Assembly (NCBI RefSeq): GCF_025996515.1
Contig: NZ_BLRH01000009.1
Location: 682,001 to 746,000, forward strand
DNA length: 64,000 bases
Origin: Rhizohabitans arisaemae
Lineage (GTDB): Bacteria; Actinomycetota; Actinomycetes; Streptosporangiales; Streptosporangiaceae
Reading direction: 5' to 3'
The position numbers were made by a program, and so were the translations under genes. The notes beneath the pieces were generated by a model. That model had not been told where the DNA came from. It made no database searches and was given only the letters and a program-made list of their open reading frames with translations. Numbering within the stretch: the first letter of the stretch is position 1; each line of letters opens with the position of its first letter. Of the stretch, positions 1,530 through 51,977 are shown piece by piece.

Positions 1530-4500
1530 GTGACCCCACGACGACAACGAAGTGCTCTCGTCGCCGCCTTGAGTGCCCTGGCGCTGATCGCCCCGGGAAC
1601 TCCCGTATCCGCCGAACCCACCCCGTCCTCGACCACCCTGAAACCGGACGTCAGAGCGGTGTCCGGAAAGTGGAAGGCCACCCCGCTGGGCACCCCGCAG
1701 GTGGTCAACGGCGCCAAGTCCCCCAGCGGGCGGCTCGCCAAGAGCGACGCCGCGCTGCTGCGGAGCACCTCCAAGGCCCCGGTCCGCGTCGTCGTCAAAC
1801 TGGACTACGACTCCGTCGCCGCCTACAAGGGCGGGCTGAAGGGCTTCGCCGCGACCAGCCCGGCGGCCACCGGCAGGGACTTCACCCTCAAGAGCGACCC
1901 GGTCCGCCGGTACGAGAGCCACATCGCGTCGGTGGAGAACACCTTCCTGACGGCGCTCGCCAAGGCCGTCCCCGAAGCCAAGGCCGGACAGCGGCTCCGG
2001 TTGGTGTACGGCGGCATCGCGCTGTCCGTCCCCGCGAACAAGGCGGCCGAACTCCTCAAGCTGCCCGGCGTCGCCGCGGTCCAGGAAGACCGGCTGGCGC
2101 AGCCCACCACCGACTCCACCCCGGCGTTCATGGGCGCACCCACGATCTACAGCCAGCTCGGCGGGAGCGCCAACGCCGGCAAGGGCGTGATCGTCGGCAT
2201 CCTGGACAGCGGCTCCTGGCCCGAGCACCCCTCCTACAACGACCCCGGCACCCTGCCCGCGCCCCCGCCCACGGCCGACGGGTCCCCGCGGGTCTGCGAC
2301 TTCGGGGACAACCCGCTGACCCCGGCGAACGACCCCTTCGTCTGCACCGGCAAGCTCATCTCCGGCCAGCCGTTCCTGGACACCTACAACGCCCAGGTCG
2401 GCGGGGAGGTCTTCCCGGACAGCGCGCGGGACTCCAACGGGCACGGCACCCACACCTCGACCACCGCGGCCGGCGGCCCGGTCTCCGGGGCCAACCCGCT
2501 CGGCATCAACCGCGGCAACATCCAGGGCATCGCCCCCGCGGCGCACGTCGCCGTCTACAAGGTCTGCGGCGCGCAGGGCTGCTACCAGTCCGACTCCGCC
2601 GCCGCGGTGGCCCGCGCCATCCTGGACCGGGTCCGAGTGATCAACTTCTCCATCTCCGGTGGCGAGGACCCCTACAGCGACCCGGTGGAGCTGGCGTTCC
2701 TCGACGCCTACGCCGCGGGCGTCCTGGTCTCGGCGTCGGCCGGCAACTCGGGGCCCGGGCCGGACACCGTCGCCCACCGCAGCCCCTGGGTGACCACCGT
2801 CGCCGCGTCCACCCAGACCCGGACCTATGAGTCGACCGTCACGCTGAACGGCTCCGGCGGCTCCGTCGCCACGGTGAAGGGCGCCTCCGTCACCGCCGGG
2901 GTGGCCTCGCCGCGGCAGGTGGTCCGGGCGTCCGCACCGCCGTACAACAACGCTCTCTGCACCACCCCCGCCCCGCCCGGACTGTTCACCGGTAAGATCG
3001 TCGCCTGTGAGCGGGGTCCCGGACGGGTGATCAAGGGCTTCAACATCCGGCAGGGCGGCGCCGCCGGGATGATCCTGTACAACACCACCCCGCTCGACGT
3101 CATGACCGACAACCACTGGCTACCGACGGTCCACATCGACCAGCCGGCCACCACGACCCTGCTGAACTTCCTCACCGCCAACCCGGCCGCCACCGCGACC
3201 CTCACCCAGGGGACGCAGACCACCTGGCAGGGCGACCGGATGACCTCGTTCTCCTCCCGGGGACCCGGCGGCGACTTCCTCAAGCCGGACGTCACCGCAC
3301 CCGGCCTGCACATCCTCGCCGGCCAGACCCCCGTCCTGGAGGACGCCTCCGGCGGCCCCACGGGCCAGTACTACCAGGCCATCGCCGGGACCTCCATGTC
3401 CTCGCCGAACAACGCCGGAGCCGCCGCACTGCTCTTCGCGCTCCACCCGACCTGGACCCCCGGGCAGGTGAAGTCCGCGCTGGAGACCACGGCCAGGACC
3501 GCGGTGTTCAAGGAGAACGGCACCACCCCCGCGGACCCGTTCGACTTCGGCGGCGGGCGCGTCGACCTCACCAAGGCCGGAAACCCCGGCCTGACCTTCG
3601 ACGAGACCGCGGCCGACTTCACCGCCTCGGCGACCGACCCGCTCAACCGGATCGACCTCAACCTGCCGTCGATCAACGCCCCGACCATGCCCGGCATCAT
3701 CACGGCCAAGCGGACCGCGAAGAACGTCACGGGCCAGGCGCTCACCTACAACGCGACGGGCACCGCGCCGAGCGGCGCCGCCGTCGTGGTCGTGCCCCCG
3801 GTGTTCACGCTCCAGCCGGGCGCGAGCATCGACCTCACCGTGATCGTGACGGCCACCGACCTGCCGGACGGCCAGTACTTCGGCCAGGTCAACCTGGACC
3901 AGGTCGGCGGACCCCGTGACCTGCACCTACCGGTCGCGTTCTACCGCCAGGAGGGCGTCGTCCCGATCGACCAGACCTGCGTCCCCAGCACGATCGCCCG
4001 GAACACCGGCAGATCCACCTGCACCGTGAAGATCCAGAACAACTCGCTCAGCACCGCCGACGTCACCGCCACCAGCGTCCTGGACTCGCGGATCAGGCTC
4101 ACCTCGGTCACCGGCGCCACCCAGGCCGGACCGCGGACGGCGGTCGCCCAGGCGACCCTGGCGGGACGGCAGCCCGACCGGCCGACCATCGCCCCCGGGC
4201 CGACCCCGGCGGGCTACCTGCCGCTCGACGCCTTCGGCGTCACCCCGGTCCCCATCGGGGACGAGCAGGCGCTCAACTTCAACGTGCCCGGGTTCCGGTT
4301 CGCCGGGAAGACGTACAACTCCCTCGGCATCGTCTCCAACGGCTACTCCGTCGCCGGCGGGGCCAGCGGCGACCAGATCAGCTACCTGCCGCAGAACCTG
4401 CCCGACCCGAGCCCGCCCAACGGGGAACTCGCCACGTTCTGGACCGACCTCGACGGAACCGGGGCGCCCGGCGTCTACGCCGCGACCCTCACCGACGGCG

Positions 4501-4883
4501 TCAGCTCCTGGATCGTGGTGGAGTGGCGGGTCAACGTCTACGGTACGGCGAGCGGACGCGTGTTCCAGCAGTGGATCGGCGTCAACGGAGCCGAGGACAT
4601 CTCCTTCACCTACGACCCGGCGAACCTGCCGGCCGCGCCCCCGGCCGGTTACGGCCTCACCGTCGGCGCGGAGAACGACGACGGTTCGGCCGGCGCCCAG
4701 ATCGCCGGACCCCCGACCCAGGACCTCGTCGTGGTGAGCACCCCCGGCACCCCCGGCGGGTCGCACACCTACACCCTTGAGGTGCAGGGTGTGGCCACCG
4801 GAGTCGGTACGGTGCGCACTGCGACCTCGACGCCGCTGGTCCGCGGCGTGACCGTGGAGGTCGACAAGATCACCGTGCAATAG
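1530..4883 (+). CDS. Secreted subtilisin-like serine protease (S8) with PA domain
   Basis: A 1117-residue exported protease. Residues 1-28 are a Sec signal peptide (TPRRQR, hydrophobic core, ending PVSA). An inhibitor-I9-like propeptide covers roughly 83-190. The S8 catalytic domain carries D226 (GILDSG), H305 (DSNGHGTH), oxyanion N406 (AGNSGPG) and nucleophile S622 (AGTSMSSP). A PA (protease-associated) insert lies at about 440-560 between His and Ser, the layout of lactocepin/plant-type subtilases. The last ~430 residues form Ig/FnIII-like and beta-rich modules. It probably degrades extracellular protein. GTG start chosen for the GGGAGG site five bases upstream and the signal peptide. Monocistronic: followed by a strong hairpin at 4893-4932. 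Confidence 0.92.
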   Translation: MTPRRQRSALVAALSALALIAPGTPVSAEPTPSSTTLKPDVRAVSGKWKATPLGTPQVVNGAKSPSGRLAKSDAALLRSTSKAPVRVVVKLDYDSVAAYKGGLKGFAATSPAATGRDFTLKSDPVRRYESHIASVENTFLTALAKAVPEAKAGQRLRLVYGGIALSVPANKAAELLKLPGVAAVQEDRLAQPTTDSTPAFMGAPTIYSQLGGSANAGKGVIVGILDSGSWPEHPSYNDPGTLPAPPPTADGSPRVCDFGDNPLTPANDPFVCTGKLISGQPFLDTYNAQVGGEVFPDSARDSNGHGTHTSTTAAGGPVSGANPLGINRGNIQGIAPAAHVAVYKVCGAQGCYQSDSAAAVARAILDRVRVINFSISGGEDPYSDPVELAFLDAYAAGVLVSASAGNSGPGPDTVAHRSPWVTTVAASTQTRTYESTVTLNGSGGSVATVKGASVTAGVASPRQVVRASAPPYNNALCTTPAPPGLFTGKIVACERGPGRVIKGFNIRQGGAAGMILYNTTPLDVMTDNHWLPTVHIDQPATTTLLNFLTANPAATATLTQGTQTTWQGDRMTSFSSRGPGGDFLKPDVTAPGLHILAGQTPVLEDASGGPTGQYYQAIAGTSMSSPNNAGAAALLFALHPTWTPGQVKSALETTARTAVFKENGTTPADPFDFGGGRVDLTKAGNPGLTFDETAADFTASATDPLNRIDLNLPSINAPTMPGIITAKRTAKNVTGQALTYNATGTAPSGAAVVVVPPVFTLQPGASIDLTVIVTATDLPDGQYFGQVNLDQVGGPRDLHLPVAFYRQEGVVPIDQTCVPSTIARNTGRSTCTVKIQNNSLSTADVTATSVLDSRIRLTSVTGATQAGPRTAVAQATLAGRQPDRPTIAPGPTPAGYLPLDAFGVTPVPIGDEQALNFNVPGFRFAGKTYNSLGIVSNGYSVAGGASGDQISYLPQNLPDPSPPNGELATFWTDLDGTGAPGVYAATLTDGVSSWIVVEWRVNVYGTASGRVFQQWIGVNGAEDISFTYDPANLPAAPPAGYGLTVGAENDDGSAGAQIAGPPTQDLVVVSTPGTPGGSHTYTLEVQGVATGVGTVRTATSTPLVRGVTVEVDKITVQ

Positions 4884-4892
4884 CCGCCTGAC

Positions 4893-4932
4893 CTCAGGCG
4901 ATCCCCGTGCCGTCCCACGGGGATCGCCTGAG
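4893..4932 (+). terminator. Terminator hairpin after the subtilase gene
   Basis: Perfect 17-bp stem (CTCAGGCGATCCCCGTG and its complement) with a 6-nt loop, starting ten bases after the stop codon. There is no U-run, as is common for actinobacterial terminators. Confidence 0.85.
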
Positions 4933-4949
4933 CCCGGTACGGCCGTCAG

Positions 4950-5253
4950 GCGGCTCAACCGGCCGGCGTCTCCCGGTCGGCCGCCCAGCTCGCGACGGCC
5001 CTGGTGTCCAGCGCCCGCCACCGGCCCCCGAAATCCCGCCCCGTGCTGAACCTCCTCGGGCGCCCCGGCGGCGTCCCGCGCGTCGGCACCGCACGCCCAG
5101 GTCGCCGATGCCCCGCTCGGCTTCCGGCAACTCCCGCACCGTCGTCGGCACCCCCACGACGGGGACGGCCGCAGCCCGGAACTTCGACCGGCCGTCAGGG
5201 CGTGGCAGAGGCCGGAACACCCTTGACGTGATCCGGCAGGCGGACGCGGCGGT
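4950..5253 (-). other. Gene-free stretch, possibly a decayed minus-strand gene
   Basis: No intact gene. On the minus strand two short runs look protein-like in different frames: VGVPTTVRELPEAERGIGDL (about 5105-5165) and, in another frame, FGGRWRALDTRAVASWAADR ending at a TGA near 4955. This is what a frameshifted remnant would look like, but no family is recognised and high GC alone can produce long open frames. Confidence 0.25.
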
Positions 5254-5478
5254 TCAGTCCATGGGTCGGCGCAGATCCTCGTGGACCGACTCGACGCCGT
5301 CGAGGGCGGCGAGCGACGCCACGGTCTTTCCACCGCCGGATTCGTCCGCCTCCACGATCACGCTGACGTGGCCACCGGGGAGAACGCGGACGAACCGGGC
5401 TCCCCGTACCCCGTCGAGCCGTGTCGCGAACTCCTCGGCCGACACCGAGATCTTCACCAGAAACACCCGTGGACCCAT
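5254..5478 (-). CDS. Small protein of unknown function downstream of a universal stress protein
   Basis: A 74-residue protein starting MGPRVFLVKISVSAEE and ending EDLRRPMD. No signal peptide, membrane segment or known motif is recognised; composition and codon use look genuinely coding (alternating hydrophobic pattern, e.g. ARFVRVLPGGHVSVIVEA). It begins 14 bases after the stop of the universal stress protein gene on the same strand, so the two are probably co-transcribed and this protein may act in the same stress response, which is inference only. The ATG at 5478 is preceded by a weak ribosome site (CACTGGGTCC). Confidence 0.6.
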   Translation of the reverse strand: MGPRVFLVKISVSAEEFATRLDGVRGARFVRVLPGGHVSVIVEADESGGGKTVASLAALDGVESVHEDLRRPMD

Positions 5479-5492
5479 GGACCCAGTGTCGG

Positions 5493-6359
5493 TCACTTCT
5501 TGGGCACGGGGACGACCGCCACCGGGGAGTGGGCGTGGTGCAGCACCCCGTGGCTGACCGAGCCGAGGATGAGGCTGCGGACGGTGCCCCGCCCCCGCGA
5601 CCCGACCACCACCAGATCGGCGCTCGCCGACGCGTCGACGATGGCGTCCACCGGGTGGTCGTGCACCACCTGCTCGACGCAGGGCACGCCCGGGTACTCG
5701 GTCCGCCACTTCGCGACGGTCGCGGTGAGCATCTCGGCGTTCCGGGCGGCCGTGGCCTTTACATCGTAGATCAAAGGCACTTCTCCGTCCTTCGGGCCCG
5801 CCGACAGCCGGATCCACGCGTGCATCGCGCGAACCGTGCTCCCCCGCAGCGACGCCTCCTCGAACGCCAGATCCAGCGCCGCCGCCGACAGATCCGAGCC
5901 GTCCACCCCCACCACGATCTCGCCCTTCGGCGGCCCCGGAATCGTCCGCACCACCACCACCGGGCAGGCCGCCTGACCCGACACCCCGAGCGCCACCGAC
6001 CCCAGCAGCAGCCCGCGGAACCCGCCCAGCCCATGGCTCCCCACCACCAGCAGCGACGCCCGTTCCGCCACCAGCAGCAGCGCGCTCCGGGGATCGCCCG
6101 GCATCAGCTGGGAGACGACCTCCACGCCCGGCTCCTCGGCCCGCGCCCGCGACGCCGCCTCCTCCAGCACCGCGCCGGCGCTGTCCCGCTTCCACTTCCC
6201 GATCTCCGCGTGCCGCGCCGTCTCCGGCATGGAGTAGGCCCACTCCGGCATGACGTGCACCAGCCGGACCGGCAGCCGCCGAACCACGGCCTCCGCCATC
6301 GCCCAGCCCACCGCGTTCAGCCCCGCGGGCGAGCCGTCCACCCCGACGACGATCTCCAT
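5493..6359 (-). CDS. Universal stress protein with two tandem USP domains
   Basis: A 288-residue cytoplasmic UspA-family protein. Domain 1 (about residues 1-138) starts MEIVVGVDGSPAG and has the ATP-binding signature GSHGLGGFRGLLLGSVA; domain 2 (about 147-288) starts GEIVVGVDGSDLSA and carries GSRGRGTVRSLILGSVS. Both therefore keep the G-x2-G-x9-G(S) pattern of ATP-binding USPs, which typically bind ATP and help cells survive hypoxia or starvation. The ATG at 6359 follows GGAGGGG; upstream in-frame starts lack this site. Likely operon with the small gene at 5254-5478. A degenerate 52-nt palindrome lies 100 bases upstream. Confidence 0.9.
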   Translation of the reverse strand: MEIVVGVDGSPAGLNAVGWAMAEAVVRRLPVRLVHVMPEWAYSMPETARHAEIGKWKRDSAGAVLEEAASRARAEEPGVEVVSQLMPGDPRSALLLVAERASLLVVGSHGLGGFRGLLLGSVALGVSGQAACPVVVVRTIPGPPKGEIVVGVDGSDLSAAALDLAFEEASLRGSTVRAMHAWIRLSAGPKDGEVPLIYDVKATAARNAEMLTATVAKWRTEYPGVPCVEQVVHDHPVDAIVDASASADLVVVGSRGRGTVRSLILGSVSHGVLHHAHSPVAVVPVPKK

Positions 6360-8977: not shown

Positions 8978-9292
8978 GCGACCGATGGTCCCAGGCCACA
9001 ATCGCGCCCGACCGGAAATCGGCGAGATCGTCTGCCCATGCATCGTTGACTTCGCGAGTCTCGCACGGGCTGCCGCCGCTCAGGCCCTCCTTGTCGTACG
9101 TGCCGTCTCCATCCCGCAGGCCATACCGACGCTCCAAGAACCGGACACACGATCAGCGGCAACGGCACACAACTCCCCCACCGTGGCGGTGCTCCAGCCC
9201 GGCCCCCACGCCCAGGTGAGAGGCCCAGGCAGGTCTCCATCGAGCTCCCAGAATTCAGCCGACCAAGCAGCCCAAGCCTGTCTCAAACCCAC
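8970..9292 (-). pseudogene. Frameshifted gene of unknown function next to CRISPR array 1
   Basis: Two adjacent minus-strand frames together read as one protein. From 9292 (GTG) the first frame gives a Trp-rich segment, VGLRQAWAAWSAEFWELDGD continuing to AVAADRVSG; near 9150 the sense shifts by one base and continues as FLERRYGLRDGDGTYDKEGL to WADDLADFRSGAIVAWDHRS and a stop at 8970. Each half reads naturally until the junction and becomes Arg-rich nonsense after it. The 5' end may also be missing, because upstream codons are poor and the CRISPR leader begins within 70 bases. A sequencing error is the alternative to true decay. Family not recognised. Confidence 0.55.
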
Positions 9293-9360
9293 GTACCGAC
9301 GTGTACATTGGCCGCGAAAACCCGCACATTGACATCAGAAACAATCCAGAGATTCAACGC

Positions 9361-9454
9361 TCTGACCAGCGCTTTCGCACTACCGCCGGATCGCTGCAAA
9401 ACCCGGCAATCTCAGCGCCGAAGAACACCCCGTGACCTGCGACTTTACCCTCGG
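9361..9454 (+). promoter_or_regulatory. CRISPR leader of array 1
   Basis: The 94 bases before the first repeat match the leader of array 2 (43426-43519, minus strand): TCTGACC at the far end, GCACTACCGCCGGATCGCTG (9377 onward, 22 of 23 identical) and a 21-bp block ending TTTACCCTCGG directly against the first repeat. The two inner blocks are separated by exactly 34 nt in both. This sets the transcription direction as left to right. Confidence 0.8.
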
Positions 9455-10276
9455 GTCACTCATCAACCCTGAAGGGATCGCAACCCGAACTGCCCCGCCT
9501 CCGGGTCGAGCATGTGCGCGGTCACTCATCAACCCTGAAGGGATCGCAACGTGGCCATTCGGCGCCGGCCGCGGGGAGGGGCATAGTCACTCATCAACCC
9601 TGAAGGAATAGCAACGAGTCCGAGCTTCCACAGCGCATCGACCATCCGGGGCACTCATCGACCCTGAAAGGATCGCAACTCCGGATCGCGGTAGAGGCCG
9701 CTGTTGAGCAGCTGGGTTACTCATCAACCCGGAAGGGATTGCAGCCCCGTGCCGAGAATGACGACAATCTCCCGCATGCGTTATCAGTGAGCCCTTGGAG
9801 AATCTCACTCTCCGCGGAACATCGGCCACATCTGGTGAGATTGGCCATAATGTGACGCCATGCCTATCAGCCCTCTAAGGGATAGCAACCGCCCGTGGTA
9901 GTTGGTCACCACTCCGATGATTTCGCTCTCATCAACCTTCGAAGAGATGTGGCAACTGCCGCTCCAACCCCCAGGCGTAGGCTCAATTCATTCATCAACC
10001 CCATCCCGGGATAGCAACCCGCTGTTGCCCTCGACGTCAACGCATAGGACCACTCATCAGCTCGTTGCGGGATAGCGACACGACCAGGACCGTCGCGCCG
10101 AACACCGCGAGCGATGTCACTCATCAACCCCTCGGGGATAGCAACCGCCTGTGGCAGTTGGTCACCTCCCCGGGAATGTCACTCTCATCAACCCTTGAAG
10201 GAATTGAGACAGGTAGTCCGCGACGGCACAGTCGATGGCGTACGCGTCACTCATCAACCCCCTCGGGGATGGCGAC
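9455..10276 (+). CRISPR. CRISPR array 1, about 13 repeats, strongly decayed away from the leader
   Basis: Repeat consensus, 30 nt: GTCACTCATCAACCC then TGAAGGGATCGCAAC. Clear copies at 9455-9484, 9521-9550, 9586-9615, 9650-9679, 9716-9745, 10116-10145; degenerate copies near 9781-9808, 9859-9889, 9924-9956, 9987-10018, 10050-10079, 10178-10210 and 10246-10276. Spacers are mostly 30-36 nt. The first two repeats beside the leader are identical; mutations accumulate distally, including 1-3 nt insertions in the repeat centre. Two spacers (after 9889 and after 10145) are homologous (GTGGTAGTTGGTCACC versus GTGGCAGTTGGTCACC), showing an old internal duplication. The terminal GCAAC and the orientation agree with array 2. 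No cas genes lie within the window. Confidence 0.9.
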
Positions 10277-10455
10277 TGCGCTTTGCGCTGCATGACCTTG
10301 AAAACCCCTGACGTTCACCCGATCAACGGGAGACCCCGAGCTTGCCGGATATCGGGGCGGGCATCTAGGGGTGACAGGCAAGGACGGGGCACGGTAGGTG
10401 GGCTGCCGGAGTGGCATGCGCGGAGCATCCGCCTTCGTGGCCACACCTGTTGATT

Positions 10456-10999
10456 GAGTCGGATAAACCCGTGCAAGCCCGTAAGAACGGTCGGGGTGGA
10501 AACCTGGACGTGCTAACCGTGTCAAGTGAAGTCGCCGTTAAGAGCCTGTATTTTTTGGCCGAGCCTCCGCTCGGCCGGCTCGAAACGCTGCTAAGGCAGC
10601 GTCTTCCCTCCTGATTTTCGCGCCGCAAAGAACGCGACGCGAAAATCACTCAGTCCAGACGCTGCCGCGTTTCGAGCGCGCACGTGCCCACCCAGGTATG
10701 AATAAGCCGATCAAGGCCACCGCCAGTAAACCAGGGGTTTCATACGGGATTTCGGCTTCTTGTTGTAAGAATGGCTGGATCTTAGGGATGGTCGCGCTAG
10801 GTCCGCACTTCGCACGTCGCGCTCTTTGCGACGGGCGAATGCGCGCGAGGTTCGTGCCGCGCGCTTTTTGTGCGGCACGAACCTCGCGGCCAATGTCAAA
10901 AAATACTGTTCCTGTAAGCCGGACTTCCCTTAACACGGTTAGCACGTCCAGGTTCTCACCCCGACCGTTCTTACGGGCTTGCACCGGTTTCTCCGACTA
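10456..10999. repeat. ~545-bp structured element bounded by ~100-bp inverted repeats
   Basis: The left arm (10456-10559) and right arm (about 10890-10999) are inverted copies; the central 64 bases are about 94% identical (GCAAGCCCGTAAGAACGGTC, then CCTGGACGTGCTAACCGTGT). Inside are a nested palindrome at 10578-10677 with three successive arms (GCTCGAAACG, GCAGCGTCT, GATTTTCGCG, each with an exact complement in reverse order) and a 17-bp hairpin at 10844-10888. No open frame for a transposase is convincing. It could be a non-autonomous mobile element or a region producing structured RNA. Confidence 0.7.
10776..10895. repeat. Structured repeat family B, copy 1 (inside the inverted-repeat element)
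   Basis: About 120 bases shared with 51028-51158: GGCTGGATCTT, GTCCGCACTTCGCACG, TCTTTGCG-CGGGCGAATG and then a hairpin. Here the hairpin has a perfect 17-bp stem (10844-10860 with 10872-10888) and an 11-nt loop GCGCTTTTTGT. The other copy has an 18-bp stem whose bases differ on both sides in a compensated way. Confidence 0.7.
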
Positions 11000-11045
11000 A
11001 ACCACCAGACGGGCCCGCGAAGGCGTACCGGATACTCCGCGCGCG

Positions 11046-11501
11046 CTACGGGCAGGGGTGGGCGGCGAGGTGAGCCAGGCGGTTCAGGGACCAGGTGAGG
11101 AGGGCGACGGCGACCGGCCTGGCGAAGACCCAGCCGATCTCGCCGAGCACGCCGAGGGGGAGTTCGAGCCGCTCTTCCCAGGTGATGCGGCACCTCTCGG
11201 GTCCTTCAGGAACCACGCGGAAGGCGCCGTGACCGCGGACGACACGGCCGAGGTGGCGGACGCGGACCTCGTGGGGCGGGTCCCAGTGGGTGATCTCCAT
11301 GGTGTCGAGGAAGCCGAGCCCGCCGAGGCCGGTGAACGCCGCCAGGTGTGAGCCGGGGCCGTGTCCGTCGCCGTGGACGACCTCGGCGTCGGTGAGGAAC
11401 ATCCAGTCGCGGTGCCGAGGCCAGTCGGTCATGAGTTCGAAGACTCGCTCGGCGGGCGCAGCGGCGACGACGGAGACGGCGAGGTGGCGGATCGGGTTCA
11501 C
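11046..11501 (-). CDS. SRPBCC (START/Bet v1-like) family protein, polyketide cyclase/dehydrase type
   Basis: A 151-residue protein with the SRPBCC pattern: an N-terminal strand HLAVSVVAAAPAERVFELMTDWPRH (the a-p-x-e-x-V-F-x-l-x-x-D-w motif), middle strands ending MEITHWDPPHEVRVRH, and a long C-terminal helix. Such proteins bind hydrophobic ligands in a deep pocket; the ligand is unknown. No signal peptide. It is divergent from the LprG-like lipoprotein gene at 11553, with only 51 bases between starts, so they share a promoter region. The position just right of the inverted-repeat element does not by itself indicate function. Confidence 0.8.
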   Translation of the reverse strand: MNPIRHLAVSVVAAAPAERVFELMTDWPRHRDWMFLTDAEVVHGDGHGPGSHLAAFTGLGGLGFLDTMEITHWDPPHEVRVRHLGRVVRGHGAFRVVPEGPERCRITWEERLELPLGVLGEIGWVFARPVAVALLTWSLNRLAHLAAHPCP

Positions 11502-11552
11502 GCCTTCAGCGTAGAGCCCGCACCTGGCCCAACGGCTGGGTACGATCCGCTC

Positions 11553-12233
11553 ATGTCCCTACGCAGAGTACGCGTCCTCGTGCCGCTGTTCCTGGCCACC
11601 GCCCTGGTGTCGGGATGCACGACGAGTTCGGCGGCGCCCGGCGGGTCGCTGCCCGAGGCTCCGGAGCTGATCCGCGAGGCGGTGACCGCGCTGGGGCAGG
11701 TGCGGAGCGTGGCCTTCGCGGTGGAGACCGAGGGAAGCCCGCCGATCCCGATCCGGCAGGCGCGGGGGAAGCTGCTGAAGAGCGGGGACGCCGAGGGCAC
11801 CCTGCAGATGGAGCAGGGCGGGCAGCGGGTGGAGTTCGCGTTCACCGTCCTCGGGGACACCGTGTACCTCAAGGGGCTGACGGGGGGTTACCAGAAGCTT
11901 CCCCGGGCCGCCGTGGCCGCGATCTACGATCCGACGGCGCTGCTCGACCCGGAGACGGGGGTGGCCAAGGTGCTGTCCACCGCGACCGACGTGCAGACGG
12001 AGGCGCGTGAGCAGGTGAACGGGGAGGACGCCTACCGGGTCAAGGTCAACATCCCGAAGGGGGTCGTCTCGTCCGTCGTGCCCGGGGTGACCGCGGCGGT
12101 GAACGGGCAGATCTGGCTCAGCGCCGCGAACAAGCGTCCGCTCAAGGCACTGCTGCCGCTCACCGGCGGCAAGGTCGCCGTCACCCTCTCCGACTACGAC
12201 GCGGTCCCCCCGATCAAGCCACCGGCGACATGA
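11553..12233 (+). CDS. LprG/LppX-type lipoprotein (lipid-binding)
   Basis: A 226-residue lipoprotein. The signal peptide ends in a lipobox, LVSGC (C21-C22 region, followed by TTSSAAPGG), so it is exported and lipid-anchored. The mature part has the LppX_LprAFG look: an N-terminal helix [23 protein letters not shown], then repeated strands ([43 protein letters not shown]). Mycobacterial homologues LprG and LppX carry triacylated lipids or glycolipids. The stop overlaps the start of an MFS exporter (ATGA), the same pairing as lprG-rv1410c (p55), which supports a role in lipid export to the envelope. The ATG was chosen for the signal peptide; the upstream open frame is not coding. Confidence 0.85.
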
Positions 12234-43006: not shown

Positions 43007-43425
43007 GTCGTGATCTCTCCAGCGATGATCTGTGGCGAGTTAGTCCTCCTGCTCGCCGCATGCCAGGGAGCGTTGCGATCCCTCCAGGGATGATCTGTGG
43101 CATCCCGTCGAATGAGGGGGCATTGCCATGGCCGCGTTGCGATCCCCCCAGGGATGATCTGTGGCCGCAACCGCATCTCTGATCAACATCGGGACCTTCC
43201 GTTGCGATCCCTCCAGGGATGATCTGTGGCGCGTGGAGCTGGGTCGGCGACTTCGGCGTTCCGTCGTTGCGATCCCTCCAGGGATGATCTGTGGCTCAAG
43301 GAGCCGCCGTGTACGCCGTGGCCGTCCACAGGTTGCGATCCCTCCAGGGATGATCTGTGGCCCCTGGATGGCACGGTGGCACGCTCGCCAGAGTTGTTGC
43401 GATCCCTCCAGGGATGATCTGTGGC
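43007..43425 (-). CRISPR. CRISPR array 2, seven repeats, well preserved
   Basis: Repeat on the plus strand: GTTGCGATCCCTCCA then GGGATGATCTGTGGC (30 nt). Copies: 43072-43101, 43136-43165 (one substitution), 43201-43230, 43266-43295, 43332-43361, 43396-43425, and a degenerate terminal copy at 43007-43036. Spacers are 34-36 nt and all different. The leader match on the right (43426-43519), the mutated repeat on the left and the GCAAC end all show transcription leftward on the minus strand. The reverse complement differs from the array 1 repeat at 5 of 30 positions, so both belong to one CRISPR type. No cas genes nearby. Confidence 0.95.
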
Positions 43426-50414: not shown

Positions 50415-50987
50415 GTGCGGAACCCCAGTCCGCTTCTGGCCGGCGTGTTCGCCGCCCTCCTCGCCGTGGCCGGCTGTACGGGCGACGCCGGGCCGAGCCG
50501 GACGCCGGGCCCCGGCGCGGCCGAGCCCACCCCCGCCTACGAGCTGACCCCCCGCCCGGTACGGCGCGACGAGGTCGCGCTCCGCGTCGCCCCCGTCTCC
50601 GACGGCGACACCGCGTTCACCCCGATCGGCCTGACCACCGGCCTGCCGTCGATCGTCGGCAGCCACGCGGACTTCGACGCCCAAGGAAGCTTCGTCCGCC
50701 TCCGGCTGGTCGTCGTCAACAACGGCCGGACCAACACCGTCCTCGACCCCCGGCGTCAGCTCCTCCTGGACTCCGCGGGCGCCGAGCACCGCCCCGACCC
50801 GCAGGCCATGACGATCAAGCGCCAGCCGATCGAGCCGTTCAGCCTCGGCGCCTCCGTCCGCCTGGAGTTCGACCTCTGGTACGACATCCCCGCCGGAGCC
50901 GTACCCGCCGCCCTCCGCGCCTACGGCGGCGCGAGCCTCACCGACGGCAAGGACCTCGTGGGCACCGACATCCCCCTCCCCCGCTAA
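50415..50987 (+). CDS. Lipoprotein with a DUF4352-like (telokin-type) domain
   Basis: A 190-residue lipoprotein: signal peptide with lipobox AVAGC (residues 16-20), Pro-rich linker, then an immunoglobulin-like domain with the strand pair FVRLRLVVVNNGRTNTVLDP and later VRLEFDLWYDIPAGAVPAAL, the usual signature of DUF4352/telokin-like secreted proteins. GTG start at 50415. Function unknown, perhaps envelope-associated. Stands alone between the two ABC operons. Confidence 0.78.
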   Translation: MRNPSPLLAGVFAALLAVAGCTGDAGPSRTPGPGAAEPTPAYELTPRPVRRDEVALRVAPVSDGDTAFTPIGLTTGLPSIVGSHADFDAQGSFVRLRLVVVNNGRTNTVLDPRRQLLLDSAGAEHRPDPQAMTIKRQPIEPFSLGASVRLEFDLWYDIPAGAVPAALRAYGGASLTDGKDLVGTDIPLPR

Positions 50988-51027
50988 CCGCGCCCGCACC
51001 TGTCGGCGGAACCCCCAAGGTCGCAAG

Positions 51028-51158
51028 CACGGCTGGATCTTGGGTGCCCGAGTCGCTACGTCCGCACTTCGCACGCCGTGTTCTTTGCGGCGGGCGAATG
51101 CGCGCGGGGGTTTGTGCCGCGCGGCTTTTGTGCGGCACAAACCCCCGCGGTCGATGTC
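51028..51158. repeat. Structured repeat family B, copy 2
   Basis: Shares with 10776-10895: GGCTGGATCTT, GTCCGCACTTCGCACG and TTCTTTGCG-CGGGCGAATG. Then a perfect 18-bp hairpin (51103-51120 with 51132-51149) and an 11-nt loop GCGGCTTTTGT. Relative to copy 1 the stem sequence has changed from GAGGTTCGTG to GGGGTTTGTG with matching changes on the other arm. Confidence 0.75.
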
Positions 51159-51170
51159 GGATAACACGAG

Positions 51171-51236: not shown

Positions 51237-51977
51237 TCAGCCGGTTTCGGAGGTTTCCTCCTCCGGCTGGCCGAGGTCGCCGCCGAGGTAGGCGGCGCGG
51301 ACCTCCGGGTCGTTCAGGAGATCGGCGGCGGGGGCGCTCTTGAGCACCTGGCCGGTCTCCAGAACATAGGCGCGGTGCGCGAGCTGGAGCGCCTGGGAGG
51401 CGTTCTGCTCGACGAGGAGCACCGTGGTGCCCCGCCTGTTGATCTCCCTGATGATGTCGAAGATCTGGGCGACGAGGAGCGGGGCGAGACCCATGGAGGG
51501 CTCGTCCAGCAGCAGCACCCGGGGCTTGGTCATCAGCGCGCGGCCGATGGCGACCATCTGCTGCTCACCGCCGGACATGGTCCCGCCGAACTGCGTCTTG
51601 CGCTCCGCGAGCCGGGGGAACAGCCCGTAGACCTCCTCCAGGTCCTTGCTGAGGTCGCCCTTGCGGGCGTAGGCGCCCATCAGCAGGTTCTCGTGGACGG
51701 TCATGCCGGGGAAGACGCCGCGGCCTTCCGGCGACTGCCCGATGCCGAGGAGGACCCGCTTGTGCCCGGGGACCTTGGTGATGTTCTTGCCCTGGAAGCG
51801 GATCGAACCGGAGGACACGGGGCGGAGCCCCGAGATCGTCTTCAGGGTGGTCGTCTTGCCGGCGCCGTTCGCACCGATCAAAGTGACGATCTCCCCTTCG
51901 TCGACCTCGAGCGAGATGCCCTTGAGCGCCTCGATCTTTCCGTAGTGGACACGCATGTCCGAGATCTCAAGAAGCAT
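51237..51977 (-). CDS. livF: Branched-chain amino-acid ABC transporter ATPase LivF
   Basis: A 246-residue ATPase: Walker A GANGAGKTTTLKTISG, signature MSGGEQQMVAIGRAL, Walker B VLLLDEPSMGLAPLL and switch VEQNASQALQLAHRAYVLETG, the LivF hallmark. It overlaps livG by 11 bases. Last gene of livKHMGF and followed by a strong terminator. Energises branched-chain amino-acid (or related) uptake. Confidence 0.95.
   Translation of the reverse strand: MLLEISDMRVHYGKIEALKGISLEVDEGEIVTLIGANGAGKTTTLKTISGLRPVSSGSIRFQGKNITKVPGHKRVLLGIGQSPEGRGVFPGMTVHENLLMGAYARKGDLSKDLEEVYGLFPRLAERKTQFGGTMSGGEQQMVAIGRALMTKPRVLLLDEPSMGLAPLLVAQIFDIIREINRRGTTVLLVEQNASQALQLAHRAYVLETGQVLKSAPAADLLNDPEVRAAYLGGDLGQPEEETSETG

Follow-up and report, generated by a model that had tools for sequence, protein, structure and literature searches.

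Organization of the element

The window, i.e., the whole stretch of 64,000 nucleotides that was analyzed, contains a repeat element whose parts follow each other in the order arm, L module, spacer, R module and inverted arm (Table 1). A CRISPR-like array with degenerating repeats spaced by ~65 bp (9455 to ~10281, plus strand) precedes it, as had been noted from the sequence alone. A second CRISPR-like array (43072-43423, minus strand) presents six near-identical repeats that are related to those of the first. The CRISPR neighborhood looks accidental because other copies of the element adjoin assorted cellular genes. The window also contains a second, solitary R module, which sits between the convergent genes 50445-50987 (plus strand) and 51237-51956 (minus strand).

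Table 1. Parts of the element and solitary R module in the window
Position	Strand	Feature	Evidence or remark
10430..10477	+	Outermost left arm	Pairs with 10978-11025 at 38/48 positions; window copy only, matches of the other copies begin at ~10478
10478..10536	+	Left arm common to other copies	Core pairs with 10925-10977 at 49/53 positions
10537..10690	+	L module: hairpin and three-step nested palindrome	Profile match, 133.8 bits; alignment and consensus fold of 16 copies
10691..10757	+	L-R spacer, with GTAAG-like motifs in related copies	Alignment
10758..10907	+	R module: two hairpins with covariation, and unpaired stretches that are conserved	Profile, 141.6 bits; covariance model, 132.5 bits; pair counts
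10908..10977	-	Right arm, in opposite orientation to the left one	Arm pairing, arm profiles, genome search
10978..11025	-	Outermost right arm, window copy only	Arm alignment
51017..51167	+	Second, solitary R module	Profile, 124.5 bits; covariance model, 144.2 bits

The sequence-only reading had described an element with outer inverted repeats of ~100 bp and no transposase frame. The arm tests and the coding content of the element bear this out. The pairing score of the arms is 68, and the best of 1000 letter-shuffled arms reached 8.5. With the ends first proposed for the arms (10456-10557 and 10898-10999), 88 of 104 aligned columns agree, but the inverted arms are wider than described (10430-10557 and 10898-11025) and the part shared with the rest of the family covers about 10478-10977. 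The segment 10430-10533 pairs with 10922-11025 over 104 nt with 87% complementarity. The identity of the core, which had been put at ~94%, is indeed high and amounts to 92.5% when measured over 10478-10530 and 10925-10977. These near-identical outer arms (82/97 aligned) are a peculiarity of the window copy among the 11 compound copies compared, and the arms of different copies are only ~70% alike. We rejected the idea that the outer arms covary within copies (mean arm score of 20.9 within and 18.9 between the 11 compound copies). The right arm of the window copy was at most partly overwritten by the left type (44.3 bits to the left profile and 53.4 bits to the right profile).

The three nested blocks of the L palindrome are indeed arranged in mirror order, with lengths of 11 bp (10578-10588/10667-10677), 10 bp (10595-10604/10657-10666) and 11 bp (10612-10622/10638-10648) rather than the 10, 9 and 10 bp initially reported. 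We identified additional hairpins at 10557-10563/10570-10576, 10811-10820/10828-10837 (one mismatch) and 10844-10860/10872-10888. Read in reverse complement, part of an R hairpin is similar to the innermost L hairpin of this copy (10612-10648; 17 bits), as if the modules had exchanged hairpins. The 500-nt core of the element (10478-10977) presents a strong folding potential as plus-strand DNA (z = -18.4) and as RNA (z = -19.9 for the plus strand and -18.1 for the minus strand), and none of 100 shuffles folded as well in each case. Six open reading frames of 62-112 amino acids lie in or overlap the element. None has a Pfam match above the cut-off, including any to a transposase, and the single sub-threshold match presents an E-value of 0.055 and 13.4 bits (cut-off of 25). 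In 10200-11100, we detected neither a sigma-70-type promoter nor a terminator pattern.

A dispersed family of modular repeats

The element belongs, as a compound copy, to a scattered modular family of non-coding repeats that is present about 45 times in the genome. A BLAST search of the element against its own genome returned 61 matches, including itself and its own inverted arms. The other matches are 66-91% identical, those of at least 88% identity being short pieces. Using module profiles with a threshold of 60 bits, we detected 16 L modules and 43 R modules, distributed over 38 places (37 regions and the window). The R modules, whose unit length is ~150 nt, were first aligned in 40 rows, with three of the lowest-scoring of the 43 dropped, and then in 39 rows, after dropping L106 (insertion), and the covariance model R1 was built from these 39 copies. 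Searched genome-wide, R1 identified 45 R modules at E ≤ 2.7e-8 among the 60 matches listed; the remaining 15 are weak and mostly fall on the opposite strand of an R module.

The modules are found as L-R, L-L-R, R-L, L alone, R alone, inverted R pairs and tandem arrangements. Ten of the 16 L modules are followed downstream by an R module in the same orientation and three are preceded by one, including one L module with R on both sides; for the other four, no R module in the vicinity scores above 60 bits. One convergent gap of ~1.7 kb (L119; C13:115300-125000, ~4127-5591) is a family cluster with three R modules and a partial L module in mixed orientation. Searches with the right and left arms yielded 29 and 24 matches, respectively, located at known family loci except in two places. 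One of these, C13:232062-232234, contains a degenerate R module with a right-arm piece (arm match at C13:232209-232234); the other, C8:987535-987606, is a lone weak left-arm match away from known family loci. Both lie beyond the regions covered by the module profiles. The genome-wide search proposed along with the sequence-only reading thus finds arms and modules recurring at dispersed family loci.

Genomic context of the copies

We compared the gaps that carry an element to the other gaps of at least 100 bp, as delimited by a crude gene caller with genes scoring 25 or less ignored (the R module of L109 had no usable gene pair). Among 39 element-bearing gaps, 25 are convergent, 13 tandem and only 1 divergent, whereas the 107 other gaps comprise 10 convergent, 60 tandem and 37 divergent gaps. 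Within tandem gaps, the element has the orientation of the genes in 7 cases and the opposite orientation in 6, so that plus-strand RNA cannot stem in every copy from transcription that reads through the upstream gene. The 25 commonest of the 132 Pfam families found in 79 flanking proteins include no mobile-element family.

At five loci (L106, L113, L135, L137 and L139), a GTAAG/GTAGG motif contains the stop codon of a neighboring gene, as if the end of the gene came from the repeat. As a supplier of the neighbors' stop codons, this motif remains a weak candidate (5/63 facing gene ends compared to 5/197 others).

Distribution across genomes and empty sites

We searched for the R module in other genomes with R1. 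In the search of the taxonomic family, where 8-9 candidates per genome were considered, nine copies of the own genome scored 142.8-156.3 bits and nothing comparable was found in the 340 other genomes, where there was a single match (42.4 bits). A sample of the class (394 genomes, including the own genome and overlapping the previous set) yielded three others at 36-42 bits, again among 8-9 candidates per genome. The weak matches in G119, G428 and G538 (36-42 bits) reach only 10-16 bits with the sequence profile, and the first of them looks like an ordinary hairpin upon inspection. A 28-bp match in genome G004 was likewise set aside (12.7 bits to the L profile). No match to the element was found among plasmids and phages, and these searches lend no support to a plasmid or phage origin. 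A 20-mer of the L module was found in 13 stretches of GTDB contigs, none of them labelled actinobacterial, which match the L profile over a short portion only (at best 22.1 bits), and in none of the viral contigs. An 18-mer of the R module matched one viral contig (8.7 bits to the R profile), which we take as chance. The relatives listed comprise no second genome of this genus. As far as the searched genomes show, the family appears to be confined to its lineage.

Empty sites were searched at two loci, each with 30 loci listed from 61 genomes including the own genome, the relatives belonging to other genera. For tatB-mrp, tatB was within reach in 19 of the 29 relative loci listed: the gap measures 11-215 bp in 14 of them and 306-1276 bp in 4 others, and the last one gave an unusable match (own gap of 350 bp). 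For fbiB-fbiC, the convergent pair was found in 8 of the 29 relative loci listed with gaps of -4 to 200 bp, and fbiC lies on the same strand in 1 and is not within reach in 20; the own gap measures 796 bp and carries L-L-R. None of the 58 relative loci matched any of the module and arm profiles at an E-value of 0.01. These two copies look like insertions relative to other genera, which are too distant to give the exact ends. The flanks of the copies, inspected by eye, present no sharp ends and no visible target-site duplication. The search for empty sites and duplications that had been suggested at the outset gave the absence of the element at both loci but not its exact boundaries.

Covariation and strand bias of the R module

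We analyzed the evolution of the R stems across 39 pairs and 39 copies. We observed that 98.7% of the cells are paired, compared to 92.4% in shuffles, that 18 pairs changed on both sides (9.4 in shuffles) and that 94 cells are doubly changed (24.5 in shuffles). None of 500 shuffles reached any of the five measures, and slid controls gave at most 5 pairs and 11 cells. Singleton changes are also scarcer in the stems (17 in 72 columns, 8 of which break a pair) than in the unpaired columns (28 in 51), and the alignment shows several conserved unpaired stretches. The R hairpin alleles are present in all four combinations, which points to exchange between copies or to repeated change.

The strand bias of these changes is the most interesting point of the family. 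On a tree of the R copies, the 35 hairpin pairs experienced 45 Watson-Crick switches, 41 G-U events and only 5 A-C events, and a tree built from unpaired columns gave 40 and 5. The tree of these short and recombining copies is rough, its 41 events for 44 cells indicating little grouping, and the safer figure is the pair count (15 G-U vs 1 A-C; p = 0.0005). Plain mutation bias is unlikely because, among rare changes, paired columns contain 10 C>T and 10 G>A, and unpaired columns 8 C>T and 5 G>A. A double-stranded cruciform, or correction by template switching, should produce as many G-U as A-C intermediates. The R plus strand therefore probably acts alone, as RNA or single-stranded DNA, rather than as a symmetric cruciform. 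We rejected the same bias for the L module (6 G-U and 10 A-C cells), which counts against this reading. The initial description of a single element shaped like a designed cruciform thus gives way to that of a compound copy within a modular and dispersed family, with atypical arms and R stems whose G-U bias suggests a one-strand structure.

Origin and possible role of the family

The copies are numerous, diverged and dispersed, their modules occur in varying combinations, they are biased toward convergent gaps and two of their sites are empty in relatives. The R stems covary, with G-U intermediates far above A-C. With a probability of about 0.62, we interpret the element as belonging, in compound form (arm, L, spacer, R, inverted arm), to a family of modular, non-coding repeats that are interspersed in an actinobacterial chromosome, specific to their lineage and likely to have spread as non-autonomous mobile DNA. 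Such spread, proposed also for BOX and MITE repeats, would depend on a putative mobilizing enzyme, and insertions would survive mainly behind stop codons. The R plus strand may fold alone, as a single-stranded DNA intermediate or as RNA, and this fold could be what is recognized or kept. Exchange of segments between copies would shuffle the stem alleles, and the arms of the window copy might have become nearly identical through conversion or template switching.

We also considered that the repeats might act locally as structures at 3' ends, such as two-way terminators, RNA stabilizers or insulators between convergent genes, and be kept for that use, a role that we regard as unlikely. It would fit the predominance of convergent gaps with a single divergent one, the maintenance of the stems even among singleton changes and the tatB-mrp gap, whose 350 bp extend from stop codon to stop codon. 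However, only some 40 places in 8.3 Mb carry such repeats, their orientation is indifferent in tandem gaps, the window copy presents no U-tailed terminator pattern and a separate hairpin is kept beside R at some loci (by eye, at L135 and at 51017 in the window). Taken alone, the convergent bias would also fit the counter-selection of insertions at other places, an argument made for BOX (PMC3049150). Somewhat less probable still is a many-copy family of independently transcribed structured RNAs made of R, and perhaps L. The covariation, the G-U bias and the conserved unpaired stretches of R would agree with such RNAs, but Rfam matches are sub-threshold only, the window copy contains no promoter-like site and the family was not found in relatives.

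That the element is the remnant of a classical insertion sequence, i.e., a MITE of a known IS whose arms are transposase-binding ends, seems very improbable despite its inverted arms, its lack of coding capacity and its insertion behind genes. The arms are found beside modules and no IS is seen with them among the 25 commonest flanking Pfam families, those of different copies are only ~70% alike, and by eye the copies lack sharp boundaries and visible duplications. The notion that a known IS had simply lost its body, raised with the sequence-only reading as what would overturn it, is unsupported since the 29 and 24 arm matches are almost all at family loci. Least probable of all is a chance palindrome or a pairing made only by template-switch correction, a reading already disfavored by the covariation and by the counts of G-U and A-C. 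Template switching can make arms match, and the arms of the window copy may be such a case, but no shuffle folds as well as the element, 45 copies have the same structure and the equal numbers of G-U and A-C intermediates predicted by this correction differ from the 41 and 5 counted.

Beyond the preferred interpretation of non-autonomous mobile repeats, a double hairpin of 35 pairs is maintained in some 40 R copies by compensatory and G-U changes, and the genome has no detectable Y1 transposase. We tentatively raise the unlikely prospect that R acts as one folded strand (RNA or single-stranded DNA) in a mobile or functional repeat, which would represent, in actinobacteria, either an unrecognized class of modular repeat, single-strand-dependent and possibly RNA-copied, or a dispersed structured RNA of a new type. 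Transposition, RNA function and arm conversion predict different and testable things about the upkeep of structure in bacterial interspersed repeats, and these can be compared on the ~45 copies of this family, which combine clear covariation with a strand bias within one genome. The covariance model R1 recognizes the R module and can be used on new genomes of the group.

Comparison with known systems

No Rfam family reached its gathering score in 9000-12000 of the window, and the four matches in 10400-11050 are all far below it, which led us to reject a known structured RNA or a group II intron. Our literature search, which a species-level paper could have escaped, returned no description of a comparable family for these bacteria. 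ERIC, Bcr1, NEMIS and other MITEs are non-coding and folded, carry inverted ends and lie beside genes, and the present family shares all these traits. Bacterial MITEs such as these measure 70-300 bp with terminal repeats of 15-30 bp (PMC3733652), whereas the compound copy spans ~500 bp, its arms exceed 50 bp and we detected no partner transposase.

REP sequences, associated with RAYT, are extragenic, often located between convergent or same-direction genes, and consist of one-strand hairpins of 20-40 bp with a GTAG-like motif (PMC3733652). A similar motif (GTAAG/GTAGG) recurs by eye at the module borders of the family, but its R unit of ~150 nt is much longer than a REP. The Y1 transposase PF01797 has no match in the genome (the control search was positive in 5 of 14 genomes); we rejected an IS200/IS605 or RAYT mobilizer on this absence and on the size of the unit.

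The BOX elements of Streptococcus pneumoniae and S. suis, as described in PMC3049150, are composed of separable modules with predicted RNA stem-loops, are confined to their lineage and are enriched between convergent genes, a bias argued there to reflect selection against insertions elsewhere; their mobilizing enzyme is not proven. The present family resembles them by its separable modules in varying combinations, its stable predicted stem-loops and its excess of convergent gaps (25/39 vs 10/107). It differs by its modules of ~150 nt, its longer arm, its inverted pairs, its GC-rich actinobacterial host and the strand bias of R. BOX-like modular interspersed repeats appear to be the nearest kind, a likeness that concerns the type of repeat rather than descent or the boxA, boxB and boxC sequences. 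The repeats described here are best filed as a new lineage-specific family of the BOX/MITE-like kind.
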